From Olivibacter sp. SDN3 (lineage in GTDB: Bacteria; Bacteroidota; Bacteroidia; Sphingobacteriales; Sphingobacteriaceae): a stretch of DNA of 64,000 bases. The stretch is from the NCBI RefSeq assembly GCF_014334135.1, contig NZ_CP060497.1, positions 6,014,001 to 6,078,000 of the forward strand, in the 5' to 3' direction. Below are positions 9,166-18,796 of this stretch, piece by piece. Numbering within the stretch: position 1 is the first letter of the stretch; each line of letters starts with the position of its first letter. Under the pieces are notes generated by a model that did no database searches, was not told the origin of the DNA, and was given only the letters and a program-made list of their open reading frames with translations. A program made the translations under genes and the position numbers.

Positions 9166-9699
9166 TTATTTTCTCTCCCTTATACGCTTATACAGTTTCA
9201 CTGCCATCATCAGTATAACAGCAAACAATACCAATCCTATTACACCATATATCCAATTGACAGCGCTCTTCAATACCACAACAAAAACAATAGCAAACAG
9301 TAAGACCGTTGCCAATTCATTCCATAAACGCAATTGAATAGATGTCCAGCGATTAGTCTCATCACTTAACCTGAATAGGATACGCTGGCATATGAAATGG
9401 TAAATGATCAAGCCCAAAACAAGTATCAGTTTCACGTGCATCCATGGTTGCTGCAACCATGCCGGATTCAAATAAAGCATGATGGCACCTGCAATGATCG
9501 TCAGATACATAGAAGGTGTTGCTATTACCCACCAGAGTAAACGTTCATTACGTTGATACTCTTCATGTAGAACATCATAGGCTACCTTCGATTTAAGTTT
9601 GGCTTCTGTATGGTAGATAAAAAGCCTTACCATATAGAACAGACCTGCCATCCAACAGATAACAAAAATAATATGTATGGCTTTTGCGTATAAGTACAT
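9166..9699 (-). CDS. hemJ: Protoporphyrinogen IX oxidase HemJ
   Basis: HemJ oxidises protoporphyrinogen IX to protoporphyrin IX in the membrane, the step before iron insertion or further porphyrin oxidation. The 177-residue protein has four to five membrane helices and the family start MYLYAKAIHIIFVICWMAGLFY, including the conserved histidine of AIHI and the WMAGLFY helix. Later marks are ATPSMYLTIIAG and WMHVKLILVLGLIIYH. Length is typical. It is the last gene of the heme cluster, 44 nt behind hemE, and this context separates it from other CopD-like proteins. Confidence 0.93.
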   Translation of the reverse strand: MYLYAKAIHIIFVICWMAGLFYMVRLFIYHTEAKLKSKVAYDVLHEEYQRNERLLWWVIATPSMYLTIIAGAIMLYLNPAWLQQPWMHVKLILVLGLIIYHFICQRILFRLSDETNRWTSIQLRLWNELATVLLFAIVFVVVLKSAVNWIYGVIGLVLFAVILMMAVKLYKRIRERK

Positions 9700-9743: not shown

Positions 9744-10781
9744 CTAATACCTAAACCCCTTCACCAAATCAATGGCATATTTTACGTTATCAAAGGGAAT
9801 GTCCGGCATGATACCATGACCTAGGTTAAAAATAAATCCTTCTTCCCCACGCATGCGTTCAAAAAGGTTTAGGATTTTTTTCTTGATCACCGCCCTATCC
9901 GCATAAAGTACGTAAGGGTCTAAATTGCCCTGAACGGCTACTCCTTTTGGCAAGCTGTTCTTCACATGCTTCAAATCAGCATTCCAATCCACAGAAATCA
10001 CATCCGGCCTTGCTTCCGCCATAAGCGGAGCGAATACCGAGCTTCCTTTACAAAACGAAATAATCGGAATATCCTGTCTATCAAGCTGCGAAATAATATC
10101 CACATTATAGCGGTGTGAAAATTCGCGGTAATCATCCCATGAAAGGGCTAGTGCCCAACTGTCAAATAACTGTAAAGCATTCACACCTGCAGCTATTTGC
10201 ATATTCAGGTAATCGGCGGTCACTTTCGCAATTTTTGCCAATAATTGATGGGCCAGGGCAGGTTCATTATTCAAAAACAGTTTTGTGCGTTTAAAATCCT
10301 TCGAAGAACCTCCCTCTATCAGATAACTGAGTACGGTAAAGGGAGCACCTGCAAAACCTATAAGCGGTATACTGCCCGCCAAACGTTGCTGAATAACCTT
10401 AATAGCATCTGCCACATACTGAAGCCTATCTTCCACCTCGGTCTGAAGTGCATCTATATCCTGCTTACTCCTTACAGGGTTTGAAAATTTCGGCCCTACA
10501 CCCTGAATAAAATCCAGGTTGCCCCCCATAGCCTCAGCTGTTACCAAGATATCAGAGAAAAGTATAGCGGCATCGATTCCTAATAGATCAACTGGTAACA
10601 TGGTAACATCTGCTGCAATTTCAGGTGTTTTACACATTTCAAGAAAAGAGTACTTATTCTTAATGGCCCAATACTCTTTCATAAATCTACCTGCCTGGCG
10701 CATCATCCAAACCGGAGGTCGTTCTGTTGACTGCGAAAATGCAGACTTTATAAATAAACTGTCTTTAATAGCTGTGGTCAC
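9744..10781 (-). CDS. hemE: Uroporphyrinogen III decarboxylase HemE
   Basis: HemE removes four carboxyl groups from uroporphyrinogen III to give coproporphyrinogen III, without cofactor, in the cytosol. The 345-residue protein shows the substrate loop PPVWMMRQAGRFMKEY (22-37), the catalytic aspartate region LFSDILVTAEAMG (Asp77), GFAGAPFTVLSYLIEGG, and the closing FNLGHGIMPD. Length is normal. Its start lies 3 nt behind the stop of the TPR protein gene, so translation is probably coupled to the regulatory genes upstream. Confidence 0.97.
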   Translation of the reverse strand: MTTAIKDSLFIKSAFSQSTERPPVWMMRQAGRFMKEYWAIKNKYSFLEMCKTPEIAADVTMLPVDLLGIDAAILFSDILVTAEAMGGNLDFIQGVGPKFSNPVRSKQDIDALQTEVEDRLQYVADAIKVIQQRLAGSIPLIGFAGAPFTVLSYLIEGGSSKDFKRTKLFLNNEPALAHQLLAKIAKVTADYLNMQIAAGVNALQLFDSWALALSWDDYREFSHRYNVDIISQLDRQDIPIISFCKGSSVFAPLMAEARPDVISVDWNADLKHVKNSLPKGVAVQGNLDPYVLYADRAVIKKKILNLFERMRGEEGFIFNLGHGIMPDIPFDNVKYAIDLVKGFRY

Positions 10782-10784
10782 TCT

Positions 10785-11297
10785 TTATTTGGGTATTTCG
10801 TTTTCTATTCTATTCACAATCTGCGCTATCCTACTACTTACTTCAAGCTCTTTTACTTTTTCTAAATAAACCTTTACACGATCATATCGCTTCATGCTCA
10901 GGTTGATATTGGCTAAATTGACAAAGATCAAAGCTTTATCGCTCTTTCTTCTGAAAGGCAACCTACTGGCTAGTTGAAAATGCCGTTCAGCAGCCTCATA
11001 GTCCAACAATTGCATAGCCAAGCTACCACTGATAAACTCGTAATAATTGCGTCTCCTTTTCCTCAGGTGATCAGGGTTTCTGATATCCGCCAATAAGGTT
11101 CTGGCCTGATCGTATTGCTTTTTCTTAAAAGCCTCAGAGGCCAATAACACCGTTCCTTCGCGGTAATAACTCCAAATCGTGTAGCCCATCAGCCCCAACA
11201 TTAAAGCTGTTAACTGATAGGTTCTTGCGTAAACCGTATAAATTAACAGTAAAAATGCAATAATTACAACACCCAATCGAGCTTTGGAAGTCATCAT
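10785..11297 (-). CDS. Small membrane protein with TPR-like helices
   Basis: This 170-residue protein has two hydrophobic segments at the N-terminus (about 8-24 and 27-44) and then a soluble helical region. Residues 50-160 hold degenerate tetratricopeptide-like repeats (FKKKQYDQARTLLADI, DYEAAERHFQLASRLP, MKRYDRVKVYLEKVKEL). I cannot name a function. It lies between the response regulator (3 nt gap) and hemE (3 nt gap), so it is almost certainly cotranslated with both. A scaffold for heme enzymes is one idea, supported by place only; hemY of Proteobacteria has a similar plan of two helices plus TPRs, but is much longer. Confidence 0.7.
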   Translation of the reverse strand: MMTSKARLGVVIIAFLLLIYTVYARTYQLTALMLGLMGYTIWSYYREGTVLLASEAFKKKQYDQARTLLADIRNPDHLRKRRRNYYEFISGSLAMQLLDYEAAERHFQLASRLPFRRKSDKALIFVNLANINLSMKRYDRVKVYLEKVKELEVSSRIAQIVNRIENEIPK

Positions 11298-11300
11298 AGG

Positions 11301-12011
11301 CTAAGCGGTCTTATTATCCGTAAACTTATATCCCACGCCTCTTATAGAATGAAAATAAATAGGATTTTTCTGATCAGGTTCGAAATATTTACGGAAAGTC
11401 AGGATAAAGTTATCGATGGTACGGGTAGAGGGATAAACGTCGTAGTTCCAAACGGTCTCTAAAATTTGCTCACGCGAAACGGCCTCATTTCTGCGTTCTA
11501 TCAGCAATTTTAGTAGCATCGTTTCTTTCTTTGTCAGCGCTGTAACCGTTCCGTCAGCGTGATGCAATTCAAAAGAGTTAAAGTAGATCGTTTTATCGCC
11601 GATATGATAAGAATTAAGCTCTTTCAAATCATCTCCTTTCATCCCTCTACGCACTAAATTCCCCACTCGTAAAATAAGTTCTTCCAAATTAAAGGGTTTA
11701 ACCAGATAATCGTCGGCACCCTTTTTTAGCCCAGTAATACGGTCTTCACTGGTATTTTTAGCGGTTAAAAACATAATAGGCAATTCTGAATTTTCCAATC
11801 GAATCGTTTCTGCTACCTGAAAGCCATCGATCTCAGGAATCATCACATCCAAGATGATAAGATTAAACCGCTCTTCTTTAAATTTTTTCAAGGCTTTTTT
11901 ACCGTCTGTTGCCGTAGTTACCTTATACCCTTCAAGCTCCAAATTTAGCTTGATGGCCTCCAATAGATGTTCTTCATCTTCTACTAGAAGTATTCGTTGT
12001 TTTGCTTGCAT
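11301..12011 (-). CDS. OmpR-family response regulator
   Basis: This 236-residue DNA-binding regulator has a receiver domain (about 5-120) with the acidic pair Glu11-Asp12, phospho-acceptor Asp55 (LIILDVMIP), Thr83 and Lys105 (DDYLVKPF). A winged-helix domain follows (about 130-232), including ALTKKETMLLKLLIERRN and REQILETVWNYDVYPSTRT. It starts 1 nt behind the stop of the histidine kinase, its obvious partner. The pair lies inside the heme cluster, so control of heme genes or of respiratory genes is a reasonable guess; the target sites are not known. Confidence 0.93.
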   Translation of the reverse strand: MQAKQRILLVEDEEHLLEAIKLNLELEGYKVTTATDGKKALKKFKEERFNLIILDVMIPEIDGFQVAETIRLENSELPIMFLTAKNTSEDRITGLKKGADDYLVKPFNLEELILRVGNLVRRGMKGDDLKELNSYHIGDKTIYFNSFELHHADGTVTALTKKETMLLKLLIERRNEAVSREQILETVWNYDVYPSTRTIDNFILTFRKYFEPDQKNPIYFHSIRGVGYKFTDNKTA

Positions 12012-12012
12012 A

Positions 12013-12879
12013 TTAACTAAATGTTACATCAAAAATGCTCCCTGTAGGAGTGTTGTTTAAAACTTTAATCTGTGCATTATGTTTATCTAAAACTGATTTT
12101 ACTATATATAACCCCAAACCGGTTCCTTTGGTTTTCCGGGTATCTTCACTACCCACCCGATAAAATTTATTAAAAATACGTTTTTTTTCTTCGTCGTTGA
12201 TACCTATACCGAGATCTGCAACAGAAAAACGTATTTGATTACGATCATTTTTATAGAGTTTTACGTTAACATGAGCACATGGCGGCGAGTATTTGATCGC
12301 GTTTTCCACCAGATTAGTAATAACAGATGTAATAGCAAGTTTATCCCCAACATAATGGATACCTGATTCTACATCCGTTTTAATAATCTGAGAGGTACAA
12401 GAGTGCACCTGCAACCTATCAGTAATTCTATAGGTTAATTCCGAAAAATCGAAAGACTCCTTCGGTATACTTTTTCCAACATTCTCCAATTTAGTAGCCA
12501 ACAAGACGTTTTCTACCAAATCATCCAAACGTTCTATATCTTTTAACGAATTTAACAGAAATTGCTTACGTTGCTCCTTGTTTAATTCGCGTTTTAAGAT
12601 TGTTTGAATATATAATTTAATAGAAGCTAGTGGAGACTTTAATTCGTGTGTAACAGAAAGTAAAAAATTATGTTGTTGCTTATGTGTTTTATGCTCATGC
12701 ACAAAAGCCTTTTTAAGTTTGATGGCACCCACCAAAAAAATGGTCATAAAAATAAATCCTTCACCAATAATCATCCCTCTCCGTAAAGGCTCAGCATCGA
12801 TCAACAGCATCCCCCACCAAACGATCTGCGCAATGGCGTAAAAAACAAGGAAGTAAAACAAAAATAGTGACTTACGCAT
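12013..12879 (-). CDS. Sensor histidine kinase with almost no periplasmic domain
   Basis: This 288-residue kinase has two membrane helices (about 5-27 and 36-54) joined by a loop of roughly ten residues, so it has no room for a periplasmic sensor. The catalytic core shows the H box SVTHELKSPLASIK (His78), the N box NLVENAIKYSPP, DLGIGI and GTGLGLYIVK. No HAMP or PAS domain is visible. This plan matches the intramembrane-sensing kinases, which read a signal in the membrane or from a partner protein. It follows hemL by 30 nt and precedes its regulator by 1 nt. Confidence 0.92.
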   Translation of the reverse strand: MRKSLFLFYFLVFYAIAQIVWWGMLLIDAEPLRRGMIIGEGFIFMTIFLVGAIKLKKAFVHEHKTHKQQHNFLLSVTHELKSPLASIKLYIQTILKRELNKEQRKQFLLNSLKDIERLDDLVENVLLATKLENVGKSIPKESFDFSELTYRITDRLQVHSCTSQIIKTDVESGIHYVGDKLAITSVITNLVENAIKYSPPCAHVNVKLYKNDRNQIRFSVADLGIGINDEEKKRIFNKFYRVGSEDTRKTKGTGLGLYIVKSVLDKHNAQIKVLNNTPTGSIFDVTFS

Positions 12880-12909: not shown

Positions 12910-14274
12910 CTACTTGAATACCACATCTAAACTCTCAAAGATAGCTCTTTTAGCCTTTTCAAGTTCAACTTTAGAATGTGCAGCAGAAATAAATCCAACT
13001 TCATAACCGGAGGGGCCCATATAAATACCTCTATTTAGCAATTCGCGGTGCATGACCTTATATTTTTCCATGCTCGCATGATCAATATCAGCTGCTGCCC
13101 GAATATGCTCTTTCTCGGTAAAAGCTATCCAAAAAATAGAGGCTATATTAAACACTTTTATCTTATAGTTTTTCGCATCAGCGTAACGTTGTATAGATGC
13201 AGCAAAGTCCGACGTCTTTTTGTTAAGTTCTTTGTAGAAACCATTTCTGCTCAGCTCTGTAAGCTGGGCGATGCCCGCAGCCATAGCAATAGGATTTCCA
13301 GACAAAGTACCAGCTTGATAAACACCACCATCCGGTGAGATGTGGCCCATGATTTCCGCAGAAGCACCATAAGCACCAACAGGCATTCCCCCACCGATAA
13401 TTTTCCCATAAGTAATAATGTCTGGCTGCACGTCATAATAGGCTGCTGCTCCCTCAAATCCTAGGCGAAAACCAGTGATTACTTCATCGAAGATCAACAA
13501 TGCCCCCTGCTCTTTGGTAATAGCTCTTAAAAAGTGGATATACTCTTTATCTTGCAGCAACAACCCATTATTTGCTGGTACCCCTTCAATAATAACCGCA
13601 GCAATTTCACCCGGAAACCTATCAAAAGCTTCAGTCAACGCATTTTTATCATTTAAAGCAATAACGATGGTTTGCTCCGCAAAAGATTTTGGCACACCGG
13701 CGGACGAGGTTTCACCAAAAGTGACTAAGCCTGAACCAGCTTTAACCAATAAAGAATCTGAATGCCCATGGTAACATCCCTCAAATTTAATTATTTTATC
13801 TCGCTTTGTATATCCTCTGGCCAAACGTATAGCAGACATCACCGCTTCCGTCCCAGAGCTCACAAACCGTAGCTTCTCCAAATATTTATTGTTCTTCAGA
13901 ATCAACTCCGCCAGCTCATTCTCCAAGGCTGTAGGCGCTCCAAAGCTTAAGCCATACGGTAAAGCCGCTGTTACCGATTCACGGATCTTACTATTGTTAT
14001 GGCCTAAAATAAGCGGCCCCCAAGAACAGCAAAAGTCTATAAACTGATTACCATCCGCATCCCAGATAAAACAGCCATCGCCTTTTTCAATAAATAAAGG
14101 TGTACCATAAACCGACTTAAATGCTCTTACGGGAGAATTAACCCCCCCAGGAAAATAGCTTTTTGCTTTTTCATATAATACAGCAGATTTCTCGCGTGAT
14201 ATATCGGCTTTCGAACGAGCGGAACGGGCTTCTTCCTCCGTTCCTGAAAACATCTTTTTTATAGATCCTAACAT
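12910..14274 (-). CDS. hemL: Glutamate-1-semialdehyde 2,1-aminomutase HemL
   Basis: HemL converts glutamate-1-semialdehyde to 5-aminolevulinate with pyridoxamine/pyridoxal phosphate, the second step of the C5 route to heme. The 454-residue protein has FPGGVNSPVRAF (41-52), FVSSGTEAVMSAIRLAR (137-153), the PLP aspartate in FDEVITGFR (Asp263), and the Schiff-base lysine in YGKIIGGGMPVG (Lys291). About 25 extra residues (MLGSIKKMFSGTEEEARSAR) precede the usual start; Met8 is an alternative. The motif written EPVAGNMG in many relatives reads EGVPANNG here. It lies between hemB and the kinase gene. Confidence 0.96.
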   Translation of the reverse strand: MLGSIKKMFSGTEEEARSARSKADISREKSAVLYEKAKSYFPGGVNSPVRAFKSVYGTPLFIEKGDGCFIWDADGNQFIDFCCSWGPLILGHNNSKIRESVTAALPYGLSFGAPTALENELAELILKNNKYLEKLRFVSSGTEAVMSAIRLARGYTKRDKIIKFEGCYHGHSDSLLVKAGSGLVTFGETSSAGVPKSFAEQTIVIALNDKNALTEAFDRFPGEIAAVIIEGVPANNGLLLQDKEYIHFLRAITKEQGALLIFDEVITGFRLGFEGAAAYYDVQPDIITYGKIIGGGMPVGAYGASAEIMGHISPDGGVYQAGTLSGNPIAMAAGIAQLTELSRNGFYKELNKKTSDFAASIQRYADAKNYKIKVFNIASIFWIAFTEKEHIRAAADIDHASMEKYKVMHRELLNRGIYMGPSGYEVGFISAAHSKVELEKAKRAIFESLDVVFK

Positions 14275-14350: not shown

Positions 14351-15319
14351 TTAAATCCATCCTTGTTCCACCATATCCCGGATATGATAGGTAGTTATCA
14401 CATTCGCTCCTGAGCGAGCAAAAGCGTACATGGTCTCCATTACTACCTTTTGTTCATCGATCCAGCCGTTCTGGGCAGCAGCTTTAATCATCGCAAATTC
14501 TCCAGAAACATTGTAACAGGCCAAAGGCAGATTCGTTTCCTCTTTAATAGCTTTAATAATATCCAAATAAGCTAAAGCTGGTTTGATCATCAAAATATCA
14601 GCACCTTCTTTCACATCCTGTAACGCTTCTCGCATGGCTTCCTGCGGGTTTCGAAAATCCATTTGATACGCTTTTCTATCTCCTTTACCGGGAGCACAAT
14701 CTGCTGCTTCTCTAAAAGGACCATAATAAGCAGATGCAAATTTAGTAGCATGCGACATGATTCCCACGTTGGTAAACCCTTCGAAATCCAATGCCGTTCT
14801 TATAGCACCTATTCTACCATCCATCATGTCAGAAGGAGCTAACATATCTACTCCTGCATCGGCATGGGCTAAAGACATTTTGGTTAAAACGGCTATCGTT
14901 TCATCATTCTGCACATAATCGTCTACCAGGATTCCGCAATGACCATGACTGGTATAAGAACAAACGCAAACATCGGTGATAATATAAAGGTCTTCTCCAA
15001 ATTTATCACGGAGGGTACGAACTGCCTGAGACACAAGCCCCTTTTTGTCGTAAGCAATGTGTGCATCAGCACTTTTTTCCTCGCCTACACCAAATAGCAT
15101 GATCTTATTGACACCCAATTTTAAACCGAGTTCAACATCTGCCAACAGTGTATCGATCGAAAAGTGATAAATACCCGGCATGGCATCAATAGCCTCCTTA
15201 ACCCCTTTGCCTGGAACGACAAAGTAAGGATAGACAAACATGTCTTTTACTAAACGGGTTTCAGCCACCATTTCACGGATAACCGCGTTCTTTCTTAATC
15301 TACGTTGACGATAAATCAT
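14351..15319 (-). CDS. hemB: Delta-aminolevulinic acid dehydratase HemB
   Basis: HemB (porphobilinogen synthase) condenses two 5-aminolevulinate molecules to porphobilinogen. The 322-residue enzyme has a cysteine zinc site (Cys118, Cys120 and Cys128 in DVCVCSYTSHGHCG), so it is the zinc-dependent type, and the two active-site lysines Lys193 (SHATKFASAYYGPFR) and Lys246 (DILMIKPALAYLD). Length is standard. It is separated from hemCD by 235 nt and from hemL by 76 nt, all on the minus strand. Confidence 0.97.
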   Translation of the reverse strand: MIYRQRRLRKNAVIREMVAETRLVKDMFVYPYFVVPGKGVKEAIDAMPGIYHFSIDTLLADVELGLKLGVNKIMLFGVGEEKSADAHIAYDKKGLVSQAVRTLRDKFGEDLYIITDVCVCSYTSHGHCGILVDDYVQNDETIAVLTKMSLAHADAGVDMLAPSDMMDGRIGAIRTALDFEGFTNVGIMSHATKFASAYYGPFREAADCAPGKGDRKAYQMDFRNPQEAMREALQDVKEGADILMIKPALAYLDIIKAIKEETNLPLACYNVSGEFAMIKAAAQNGWIDEQKVVMETMYAFARSGANVITTYHIRDMVEQGWI

Positions 15320-15554
15320 GTTCTATGTATTTATAAAAGAGCGATACGTGAAGCAATGAACAGGCTGGACAACGATCCGTTCTCCCCTTAAAGACCATAT
15401 AAATTTTCAATGATTTTGAGTGTCTCTCAGCATGTTCTATATCGGATTGCCCCCTCACATAAAGCGAGGGAAGCCAATGTTCATGATCAGCTCTAAAATT
15501 TCATGTTTTACAAAGATAAAAGTAAACAGTGCCCGTGCCGAAACATAAAAAATT

Positions 15555-17198
15555 TTATAGCAATGGGGTGACAGTCTTAGATGATTCTCCACCATTAGTA
15601 GGATTTATATCACCAAAATCCAAGCTGAACACCGCCTCCGCTAAACCTATTTCATCTGGCGAAAAAGGCAAGGTATAGGTTAATCCTATTTCGGCTAGTT
15701 TTTTGCCCGTAGAATTGCCAATACTAATGATTTTCTGTCCAGGCTCTACTAAGTTATCTTTAAAGTATGCTTCTACATTGGTAGGACTGGTAAAGACTAA
15801 TACGTCGGCACTCGAACGTTCTACCTCCTCATCTATACGCGTTTCATAAACAGGTAAATCTATAACTTTAGTATCTGGAGTTAATCTGCTTTGAATTGTT
15901 TTTAAGGATCCTTTTGCCCGGGGAAAAAGAACGGTTGATCCGGCGGCCACCTTTGCAAAAGCATCTCCCACCTTTTCCATCGCTATCCCCTCTGCTTCCC
16001 CCGTAAAGGAAGGGGTGATACCATATGATCGCAACATTTCTTCAGAGCCTCTCCCGACTACAGCATATTGTACATATTTACTTAGTCGTGGCTTCAACCG
16101 AAAAAAGTTTTCAATACCATTTTTACTGCTAAAGAACACCCATCTTACATATTTTAAAATATAAGGATTTAAGGTGTTGATGATAGAAAACACCTTAATG
16201 AGCGAGCGACTTTCAACTTTTATCTGGTGATTATTCAGTGCTCTTCTCAGGTAACTGGTATCCGAAAGATCGCGGGTTATAAAAACTGTGCTCGGGAGTT
16301 TACGCTGAGGATCGAATTTAGCAACAATTTTTTCTGATAATCCTATGGTATCGTCCACTTTTAAATATAAACGTGCAGGAAAACTTTCACCATCTTTGGC
16401 TTTTGCCGTCCAACATTCAAACCCGTCCTCAGTTTTACGGCAATAACAGCCTAGTGGCATATGGCAGCCTCCCTCAAACAGTTTAAGTACTCTGCGTTCC
16501 ACTCCTATCGCTTCCGCCACCTCTACCTGATGCAAAGGTTGAAGCGCCTGCTCCAAAGCTTCATCTGACTCCCTTATCTGCACCGCCAGCACACCCTGCG
16601 CCGGAGCTGGGATAAGCTCTGTTGGCGGAATTACTTCGACATAAAATTCAGAGAGGTCCAATTCGAGACGATCCACACCGGCCTTTGCCAACATAATCGC
16701 ATCATATTTCTCATCCCGTAATTTCTGAATGCGTGTATTAACATTCCCCCTCAGATCATCTATTTCCAAATCGGGGCGTAAAGCGAGCAACTGCGCCCTG
16801 CGCCTATTGGAAGACGTGCCTACGGTGGCATTGTGCTTAACAGACAAACGCTTTTTAGAATCGACGCAGTCTTTTAATATGATCAGCAATTCCGAAGGAT
16901 CTTCTCGCTCAGAAACGGCTGCAACCTTCAAACCTGGAGGATTAGTAGTAGGCAAATCTTTATGTGAATGTACTGCAATATCGATTTTTCCAGACAAAAG
17001 TTCGTCTTCCAGTTCTTTCGTAAAAAAACCTTTGCCTTCTAACTTATCCAAACGTAGATGCTGAATATTATCCCCTTGGGTTTTGATCACCTTAAGTTCC
17101 GCAGAAATACCGATCGCTGCTAAACGGTCTTTTACATAATTAGCCTGCCACAAAGCTAATTCACTACCTCTGGTTCCAATAATAAGCTTTCTATCCAC
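15555..17198 (-). CDS. hemCD: Fused porphobilinogen deaminase and uroporphyrinogen III synthase
   Basis: One 547-residue protein combines two consecutive heme enzymes. Residues 1 to about 300 are HemC: IGTRGSELALWQA, catalytic Asp81 (HSHKDLPT), the RGNVNTRIQKL arginines and cofactor-binding Cys245 (FEGGCHMPLG). Residues about 305 to 535 are HemD, the two-lobed uroporphyrinogen III synthase, with VFFSSKNGIENFF and DVLVFTSPTNVEAYF. Fusion could pass hydroxymethylbilane directly to HemD before it cyclises by itself. The fusion occurs in some other Bacteroidota. A terminator-like hairpin stands between hemA and this gene. Confidence 0.95.
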   Translation of the reverse strand: MDRKLIIGTRGSELALWQANYVKDRLAAIGISAELKVIKTQGDNIQHLRLDKLEGKGFFTKELEDELLSGKIDIAVHSHKDLPTTNPPGLKVAAVSEREDPSELLIILKDCVDSKKRLSVKHNATVGTSSNRRRAQLLALRPDLEIDDLRGNVNTRIQKLRDEKYDAIMLAKAGVDRLELDLSEFYVEVIPPTELIPAPAQGVLAVQIRESDEALEQALQPLHQVEVAEAIGVERRVLKLFEGGCHMPLGCYCRKTEDGFECWTAKAKDGESFPARLYLKVDDTIGLSEKIVAKFDPQRKLPSTVFITRDLSDTSYLRRALNNHQIKVESRSLIKVFSIINTLNPYILKYVRWVFFSSKNGIENFFRLKPRLSKYVQYAVVGRGSEEMLRSYGITPSFTGEAEGIAMEKVGDAFAKVAAGSTVLFPRAKGSLKTIQSRLTPDTKVIDLPVYETRIDEEVERSSADVLVFTSPTNVEAYFKDNLVEPGQKIISIGNSTGKKLAEIGLTYTLPFSPDEIGLAEAVFSLDFGDINPTNGGESSKTVTPLL

Positions 17199-17344: not shown

Positions 17345-18589
17345 TTAATTATCTGAAGTTTCTTTGCTCTTTGCCACCAGTATTTCTTTGGCCATAATCA
17401 TGGGAACACTGATATATTTTTTCTCCATATAATTAATCACCTTCTCCAGTACCTCACGGGAATTTGCATCCAGTGTATTGAGCTCATTGGCAAAAACAGT
17501 ATTCAGCGCAAACGATTTTATCTCTTTCACTTTTTCGGGTACACACCTCATAGCCAACTCCACCTTACGTTGCTTCAATATAGGCATAAATTCAGCAATA
17601 TTAGACTCGATAATACGTTCAGCATGAATAAGTTCATTATAACGCTCCTGGAGATTTTTATTAGCAATGGCCTGTAACCCACTCACTTCTATATAATGCA
17701 TCAGGTGATTGTTAACTACATCGTCCGATACATCATTGGGAATAGCTAAATCAACAACAATTTTTTTGGAGGTTTCCCCATTAAGAAGTGATTCATAAAC
17801 AGTTGGAGTAATCACGGGATCTGTTGAGCCTGTACAGGTAATCAATATATCGAAACCTTTCTTATACTTCCATAGGTCCGCCAGCGTATAAGCTTCTCCA
17901 TGCAATTCCCTTGCCAGACGCTTCGCCTTATCGTATGTACGGTTAAAAACCGCAAAATTTGAATACTTATGTTTTTGGAGATATTTAGAAATATTCTGGT
18001 TTGTCTCGCCAGCACCAACGATTAATATCCTTGGATTTTCAACAAACTTTAAATCCCGCATTTTACGGTAGGCTAGGGAAACAACCGACACAGGATTACG
18101 CGATATGCGGGTATGGGTATACACCTCTTTAGCCGTTTTCACTAAGCTGTTCATCATCAAGCGCATAAAATCACCCGTAAAACCTCCTTTCCTACATCGC
18201 TCATAAGCTCTACGTACCTGAGCCAAAATTTCCTTTTCACCAACTACAAGGCTTTCTAAAGAGCATGACATTCGAAAGAGGTGGTTTAGCGCATCGAGAC
18301 CTTCGTAGGTAGTTACCTGATTTAAGAACTGATCAAACTGCTCATTAGGAACACAGAAATTCAGTCCTCTCAAGAACCCTTTGATGAAATCATCAGTTAG
18401 AGGATGTTGGCCATAAAAAACAAACTCAACACGGTTACAGGTCCCTATATAGAAAAGCTCGGTAATGTCAAAATGGTTCTTAACATTAATCAATCTACTT
18501 TCAAGCTCTTCATTGCAAATAACCAGATTACCTAAATCTTTTAGGTCAACATGTTTATGCGTAAATGCTATTACTTTAAGATGCTCCAA
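17345..18589 (-). CDS. hemA: Glutamyl-tRNA reductase HemA
   Basis: HemA reduces glutamyl-tRNA to glutamate-1-semialdehyde with NADPH, the committed step of the C5 heme pathway. The 414-residue protein has the catalytic cysteine Cys51 in YIGTCNRVEFVF, the LESLVVGEKEILAQVRRAYE helix, an NADPH-binding fold near ILIVGAGETNQ and the C-terminal dimerisation helices. It is the first gene of the heme cluster and is transcribed away from the MFS gene; a promoter-like site lies upstream at 18623-18657. Confidence 0.97.
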   Translation of the reverse strand: MEHLKVIAFTHKHVDLKDLGNLVICNEELESRLINVKNHFDITELFYIGTCNRVEFVFYGQHPLTDDFIKGFLRGLNFCVPNEQFDQFLNQVTTYEGLDALNHLFRMSCSLESLVVGEKEILAQVRRAYERCRKGGFTGDFMRLMMNSLVKTAKEVYTHTRISRNPVSVVSLAYRKMRDLKFVENPRILIVGAGETNQNISKYLQKHKYSNFAVFNRTYDKAKRLARELHGEAYTLADLWKYKKGFDILITCTGSTDPVITPTVYESLLNGETSKKIVVDLAIPNDVSDDVVNNHLMHYIEVSGLQAIANKNLQERYNELIHAERIIESNIAEFMPILKQRKVELAMRCVPEKVKEIKSFALNTVFANELNTLDANSREVLEKVINYMEKKYISVPMIMAKEILVAKSKETSDN

Positions 18590-18622: not shown

Positions 18623-18657
18623 CAAAAGTACATCTATACATGTGTTGCTCTGTCAAA
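18623..18657 (-). promoter_or_regulatory. Possible hemA promoter
   Basis: On the minus strand TACTTTTG (complement of 18623-18630) fits the Bacteroidota -7 box TAnnTTTG. A TTTG (complement of 18654-18657) lies 23 nt upstream, a little more than the usual 19-20. Transcription would begin about 30 nt before the hemA ATG. Confidence 0.45.
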
Positions 18658-18796
18658 ACTTTGTCAAACACACTTATTTAGAATGTTTTTAAATTAACTT
18701 CCACCCGGTTGATTGCAACTACAAAGAAATAAAATAATACGTATTTCGTAAACTAAATGTGAATTTTTTTCCCAATCGATAGTTTAAGTAAATTAT

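Follow-up and report, generated by a model that had tools for sequence, protein, structure and literature searches.

The closest described counterpart of the two-component system treated here, a histidine kinase (HK) and an OmpR-type response regulator (RR) encoded among the heme synthesis genes of Olivibacter sp. SDN3, is HemKR of Leptospira. Phosphorylated HemR was reported to bind TGACA[N6]TGACA, to activate heme synthesis genes and to repress hmuO, and 5-aminolevulinic acid (ALA) turns the Leptospira heme pathway off via the phosphatase activity of HemK (PMC11426443). In L. interrogans, hemKR lies between hemE and hemL, and a linkage in Bdellovibrio is mentioned with data not shown; in the L. 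biflexa kinase, a 32-residue loop was replaceable while the transmembrane (TM) part was indispensable (PMC2266917). Bacteroidota are not mentioned in the main texts of these two papers, and no heme-synthesis regulator of this kind was found for Bacteroidota in the literature searched, where hemE was partly read as heme.

The Olivibacter system was analyzed in a window of 64,000 nucleotides (64 kb) of the genome, which consists of a single contig of 6.12 Mb. On the minus strand the gene order is hemA, hemCD, hemB, hemL, HK, RR, TPR, hemE, hemJ, in which TPR denotes a small tetratricopeptide repeat protein. Judging from this gene order, a box upstream of hemA, the co-occurrence of box and regulator and the parallel in Leptospira, HK and RR very probably constitute a HemKR-type system that sets heme supply. 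The kinase (12013-12879, minus strand, 288 aa) contains the Pfam domains HisKA and HATPase_c. The regulator (11301-12011, minus strand, 236 aa) scores over the Pfam cut-offs for Response_reg and Trans_reg_C, and its closest named match, in Olivibacter domesticus, is 97% identical. An identity as the RprY or PhoB of Bacteroidetes was ruled out, as its NCBIfam scores (186.8 and 186.3 bits) are far below the cut-offs of 370 and 270, respectively. The TPR gene follows at 10785-11297 (minus strand, 170 aa, Pfam TPR repeats slightly below the cut-offs). The first-pass annotation had placed these three genes between hemL and hemE, and the coordinates bear this out with gaps of 30 nt (hemL-HK), 1 nt (HK-RR), 3 nt (RR-TPR) and 3 nt (TPR-hemE).

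What the Olivibacter and Leptospira systems have in common is an OmpR/PhoB regulator with receiver and winged helix, a HisKA kinase with two N-terminal TM segments, a position between hemL and hemE (in L. interrogans) and the sequence TGACA[N6]TGACA before hemA. What separates them is the loop of the kinase (about 8 residues in the window, 32 in L. biflexa), the TPR gene after the regulator in Sphingobacteriaceae, the restriction of the box with a -7 element to hemA in Olivibacter and the frequent lack of linkage to heme genes in other Bacteroidota. Other known systems are more distant. HrrSA and ChrSA of Corynebacterium are likewise heme-responsive two-component systems, and HrrA acts on heme synthesis genes, but the regulators belong to a different family. 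Intramembrane-sensing kinases such as BceS, LiaS and SaeS possess two TM helices with hardly any loop between them, 25 residues being the limit, and the window kinase, with two TM segments and a loop below 25 residues, falls within this definition. The regulator of HssRS, found in Staphylococcus and others, is of the OmpR type. For the HisKA kinase of HssRS, heme binding inside the TM helices is reported; however, HssS has an extracellular domain and the system drives the efflux pump HrtBA, while the window system would target heme supply genes (PMC11237747). Intramembrane-sensing kinases are tied to accessory membrane proteins (PMC11237747); long-loop relatives of the window kinase keep the same TM residues.

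Within Sphingobacteriaceae the system is strongly conserved. A search at E ≤ 1e-60 revealed exactly one RR in each of 25 genomes, Olivibacter included, and HK-RR adjoins hemL or hemE in 24 of them. Identities to the window proteins range from 74 to 98% for RR, from 51 to 91% for HK and from 31 to 87% for TPR, RR being the most conserved protein of the trio. The unlinked exception, G014, has a genome of 2.0 Mb (99% complete) in which hemE was not found and no hemA scored over the cut-off. In another genome (G008, locus L079, 5290-5892), an unrelated open reading frame of about 200 aa separates the kinase from the regulator gene. All 20 named Sphingobacteriaceae/Sphingobacteriales loci (Olivibacter, Sphingobacterium, Daejeonella, Arcticibacter, Pedobacter, Mucilaginibacter and metagenome-assembled genomes, at least two of them overlapping with the 25 genomes) show the order HK-RR-TPR-hemE-hemJ. 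In five Sphingobacterium loci, hemA, hemCD, hemB and hemL were not found within 10 kb upstream.

The hem-box upstream of hemA

The hem-box reportedly goes back to Morero et al. 2014. An alignment within the genus uncovered a conserved block upstream of hemA, the first gene of the run (glutamyl-tRNA reductase, TTG start; 17345-18589, minus strand), which comprises an inverted repeat, the direct repeat TKACA-N6-TGACA and, 20 nt further, TAnnTTTG, the -7 consensus of Bacteroidota. In Olivibacter, the hem-box TGACA-N6-TGACA is located at 18651-18666 (minus strand) and is predicted to be the binding site of RR; with the -7 promoter element TACTTTTG (18623-18630, minus strand) 20 nt downstream of it, it was the sole match in the genome when up to one mismatch was allowed, a reversed-pattern control also giving 1. 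hemA is predicted to be the main target of RR. A second exact repeat (10160-10175) lies inside hemE, has no -7 element and was taken as chance; cores with up to one mismatch occur four times in the window, 7.8 being expected. The inverted repeat ATTTAAAA-ACA-TTCTAAAT (pattern ATTTAnAA-N3-TTCTAAAT; 18676-18694, minus strand) is positioned directly upstream of the hem-box. It is conserved in Sphingobacteriaceae but was rejected as RR site because it is absent from most other families that retain the direct repeat, and an iron-regulator site would be a guess. Both repeats are kept before a Mucilaginibacter hemA that is away from the operon. At position 17394 of L104 (Sphingobacterium mizutaii), the same inverted repeat was seen with an AraC gene on one side and a gene for an outer-membrane barrel on the other.

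To what extent the box accompanies the regulator was determined with 58 hemA genes of RR-bearing genomes (26 from Sphingobacteriaceae operons, 26 full-length genes from a 30-genome search, and L119, L123, L202, L213, L214 and L276). G327, G185, G034, G040 and G050, for which the search of 30 genomes gave no full hemA, were left out of the count. A box with up to one mismatch was detected within 350 nt of 56 of these genes, 51 times in exact form and with 48 distinct boxes among the 56, compared to none of 20 hemA genes from 18 RR-lacking genomes, in which the best sequence had two mismatches; the genomes of both groups were chosen by hand, not at random, and relatives among them are not independent. 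Counted by family, box and RR occur together in 14 of 14 families with RR, while none of five families without RR has the box (Fisher 8.6e-5; L123, of unknown family, excluded). In the 29 sequences first scored, 17 cores with up to one mismatch and a -7 element were observed versus 0.04 in block shuffles. The box of G080 was seen while this genome still counted as RR-lacking. Its RR match (1.7e-70) had been missed at E 1e-75 and was found by a looser search, whereas the best RR match in the other RR-lacking genomes is only 6e-51. The box is also present where the genes are unlinked, as in G019, whose hemA is about 1.5 Mb from HK-RR, and in G076, which has hemA on a different contig. Gene order together with a box that tracks RR even in such genomes upholds the functional link to heme that the first-pass annotation had proposed.

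In genome-wide searches for boxes with a -7 element, 14 chosen genomes gave 26 matches with up to one mismatch versus 2 for the reversed pattern. All eight exact matches were at hemA; the 18 one-mismatch matches were at three heme genes (hemA and hemL of G045, hemB of G005), two TonB receptors of G014 and 13 places elsewhere. A scan of 31 chosen RR-bearing genomes for the exact core at 20-33 nt from ANNTTTG, with sites sorted by inspection, yielded 34 matches versus 6 for the reversed pattern, of which 18 were at hemA, three before hemL in another class of the phylum, two before the G014 TonB receptors and 10 elsewhere; the remaining match, at a contig end, has the same sequence as the hemA site of G055. 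Eight of the 31 genomes gave no exact match, among them G304, G213 and G041, whose hemA boxes have one or two mismatches. With regard to heme oxygenase, the scan covered boxes bearing a -7 element, with the single own-genome site at hemA, and a gene of the hmuO type was not sought.

G014, without hemA and hemE, has kept HK-RR, with the box before two TonB receptors. One receptor, of 708 aa, scores over no NCBIfam cut-off (best models: B12 and hemin receptors) and is followed by a protein barely over the HmuY cut-off (27.3 vs 27); the other is truncated at a contig end. Some further boxes were recorded. In G327 and G014, both without a full hemA, an exact box precedes a similar PD40 beta-propeller protein (L310, L322). 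G080 has a second exact box (L316) before a gene, presumably bacilliredoxin-like, that faces a radical-SAM HemW-like gene. In two metagenome-assembled genomes of Bacteroidota (L141, 4151; L136, 9903), an exact hem-box core lies directly upstream of the RR gene, which would suit autoregulation.

The membrane helices of the kinase

The AlphaFold model of the kinase (mean predicted local distance difference test score 85) comprises TM1 (residues 2-29) and a second helix (31-96) that runs from TM2 into the dimerization and histidine phosphotransfer domain, with a one-residue break between them; about 8 residues separate the two TM helices, leaving almost no periplasmic loop. H78 was assigned by position as the phospho-accepting residue. 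Kinases from 45 genomes (28 Sphingobacteriaceae, 17 others), chosen by adjacency to RR alone, were inspected for conserved residues. W22 and E40 are present in all 45, W21 in 43; the two exceptions, species of one genus, have SW instead of WW. By contrast, the distance from WW to the His box varies widely, with 56 residues in Sphingobacteriaceae, 77-97 in families f18 and f21 and in G040, 134 in G034 and 199 in the other class, corresponding to loops of roughly 8, 30-50, 85 and 150 residues. This variation, next to invariant Trp in TM1 and Glu in TM2, points to sensing in the membrane, and it strengthens the intramembrane plan which had been ascribed to the kinase in the first-pass annotation. 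The helix turn at residue 30 would bring W21/W22 and E40 to a like depth in the model.

A hydropathy scan upstream of the 28 HisKA domains of the Olivibacter genome detected WW in the first helix and an acidic residue in the second only in this kinase. Among 18 kinases of named Bacteroidota loci that adjoin a related RR (L120-L143), 17 have WW and L120 has none, and the kinase of a Planctomycetota locus (L152) shows both WW and Glu. The paralogous kinases of L154-L156, L158 and L171 possess neither, and L164 has WW without Glu.

Other families and neighboring genes

At E ≤ 1e-75, RR was detected in 23 of 296 genomes of the phylum, eight of which are Sphingobacteriaceae, all heme-linked. Among 12 genomes of other families with RR, 10 have no kinase beside RR, and heme genes were nearby in none. 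The order hemL-HK-RR was found in one genome (G076) of the Saprospirales-like family f21, though not in three others, in Phaeodactylibacter xiamenensis (L122) and in UBA7662 (L123, with hemA and hemCD upstream). In the other class of the phylum, all four genomes have HK-RR-hemE, with hemL upstream in G041, G045 and G055 and on a different contig piece in G050; in G041, G050 and G055 the gene downstream is presumably hemN-like. In family f18, which is Chitinophagaceae-like by its company in the RR tree, HK-RR lies downstream of a lipoprotein gene in seven of nine loci, a gene which we take to be gldH-like. On the RR tree (56 rows), the heme-linked label requires 6 changes, at least 4 of them across well-supported branches, compared to 15.5 in shuffles, which indicates that heme linkage was gained or lost several times. 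A strict dedication of HK-RR to linked heme genes was ruled out, as the pair is apart in many families.

In RR-lacking genomes, named Flavobacteriaceae-like as a guess, and in G025, an AraC-like gene, recognized by sequence likeness, is divergent from hemA in 9 of 15 listed loci (L261, L262, L264-L267, L270, L274, L275). The AraC type was confirmed by Pfam in the three that were checked (L262, L266, L274). It is possible that this gene is a replacement for the regulator.

Beyond the segment covered by the first-pass annotation, the Olivibacter run extends to hemJ downstream of hemE and to hemB, hemCD and hemA upstream, which brings the number of encoded heme synthesis activities to seven (A, C, D, B, L, E, J). 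The remaining genes, all on the minus strand, are the hemC-hemD fusion (15555-17198), hemB (14351-15319), hemL (12910-14274), hemE (9744-10781, GTG start) and, as the last gene of the run, hemJ (9166-9699), which is over the cut-off for UPF0093 and reaches 123.7 bits with TIGR00701, below the cut-off of 138. At its N terminus HemL is extended by about 25 residues (14200-14274, minus strand), possibly a membrane-binding helix; this extension is shared by the Sphingobacteriaceae HemL of L079, L082 and L223 and lacking in L095 and L222. The 235-nt gap before hemB (15320-15554, minus strand) contains the -7-like element TATCTTTG and a GC-rich hairpin-like stretch, and an internal promoter ahead of hemB is possible.

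Proposed regulation of heme supply and alternative explanations

Taken in sequence, the system may work as follows. The membrane kinase would use its two helices to read, in or at the membrane, the state of the porphyrin pathway and, when heme is short, would phosphorylate the regulator. This would bind the 11-bp direct repeat (hem-box), which lies at the -33 region of the promoter of hemA, and activate hemA and, with it, operon genes including its own. With plentiful porphyrins the kinase would turn into a phosphatase and the operon would be switched off. Phosphotransfer, binding to the same box, hemA activation and the ALA shutdown are carried over from Leptospira and presumed to hold in Olivibacter. 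Among heme, another porphyrin and the quinone pool as candidate signals, the porphyrin pathway is favored because ALA shuts HemKR down in Leptospira.

Several points weigh against a HemKR-type system. Two hemA genes of RR-bearing genomes are without a good box: L252 (G213), with two mismatches, and L257, which is the second such gene of G018, the first one carrying the box. In RR-bearing G026, G032, G034, G040 and G185, exact boxes with a -7 element are missing; no full hemE was found in the first four of these and no full hemA in G034, G040 and G185. In most of the families other than Sphingobacteriaceae, HK-RR or an orphan RR is located apart from heme genes. The likeness to HemK/HemR is one of architecture, gene order and box, and neither expression nor binding data for any Bacteroidota turned up in the literature searched. 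In Leptospira itself, a hemKR deletion of L. biflexa from 2024 did not significantly change hemA in standard medium (PMC11426443). The L. biflexa mutants of 2008 had shown 2- to 10-fold lower transcript of hemA, hemE and hemL (PMC2266917), and because the two studies differ, heme control in this species is composite. The first-pass annotation had considered the linkage to be chance if the trio was apart from heme genes in most relatives. This separation is not seen inside the family (24 of 25 linked), though in the other families sampled it mostly is; since the box still precedes hemA where those families have it (56 of 58 genes, all families), the linkage is not chance.

A role of the TPR protein in the system is doubtful. 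As initially suggested, the protein might present a signal to the kinase, in the manner of the accessory proteins of other intramembrane-sensing kinases, or it might be a HemY-like membrane anchor for HemE and HemJ. Its structure model, an N-terminal helical (membrane) hairpin followed by TPR helices, would suit both, and the gene lies between RR and hemE in 21 of the 25 Sphingobacteriaceae genomes and in all 20 named loci. On the other hand, it is not beside HK-RR in G008, G011, G012 (with hemE on a separate contig) and G014, and in no other-family locus examined does it adjoin HK-RR. As the box persists in G008, G011 and G012, and HK-RR with the box in other families, the proposal of a signal presenter has lost ground, although an unlinked partner is still conceivable. 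A structure search gave generic TPR folds only, none at E ≤ 0.001, and an identity as HemY was rejected, no similarity to the E. coli protein being seen (hhalign probability 1%). The TPR protein is an addition of Sphingobacteriaceae to the putative HemKR locus.

It is also unlikely that the regulator owns the box but represses hemA by covering the -33 region at heme excess. HrrA of Corynebacterium is a repressor of this type, and in the window the downstream half-site overlaps the -33 element expected from the promoter consensus. However, conservation is seen for TGACA and not for a TTTG at -33, and the distance from the box to the -7 element keeps to one of two narrow ranges in most of the phylum sample: it amounts to 19-21 nt for most hemA genes and to 29-32 nt for six of seven f18 genes, two of four f21 genes and one Sphingobacteriaceae gene. 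Since the longer spacing is one helical turn more, an activator touching RNA polymerase is favored. In L228, the one f18 gene left, half-sites stand in tandem farther upstream, and a good -7 element is present at neither distance. Moreover, HemR was reported as an activator of hemA (PMC11426443).

There is a similarly small chance that what the kinase senses is not a porphyrin but the membrane's quinone or redox state, heme synthesis being tuned to respiration. The conserved Trp and Glu would suit a quinone equally, and the gliding-type lipoprotein gene beside HK-RR in f18 would also agree with it, but the targets above background are heme supply genes and the published system responds to ALA (PMC11426443). 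That the repeat belongs to a different, unlinked regulator, with HK-RR in the operon by chance or controlling something else, is very improbable: HK-RR is away from heme genes in most other families and 10 of the 34 exact matches are at other genes, yet the repeat is identical to the HemR box, tracks RR family by family, exposed the RR missed in G080 and is found at the TonB receptors of G014.

For heme synthesis in a large part of the phylum Bacteroidota, the HemKR-type system would provide a regulator, a target and a predicted binding site, and Leptospira HemKR is unlikely to be an oddity of spirochetes. Membrane sensing agrees with the L. biflexa kinase, in which the loop is replaceable and the membrane part indispensable, and narrows the problem of heme status sensing by a kinase to three residues. 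We tentatively suggest, as a possibility that falls short of an even chance, that the kinase directly senses a heme pathway product in the membrane, with the Trp pair and Glu as the binding or switching site, and that control of heme supply by HemKR may be ancestral in Bacteroidota. Flavobacteriaceae-like genomes would then have exchanged it for a divergent regulator of the AraC type, and where biosynthesis was lost it would have been redirected to the uptake of heme.

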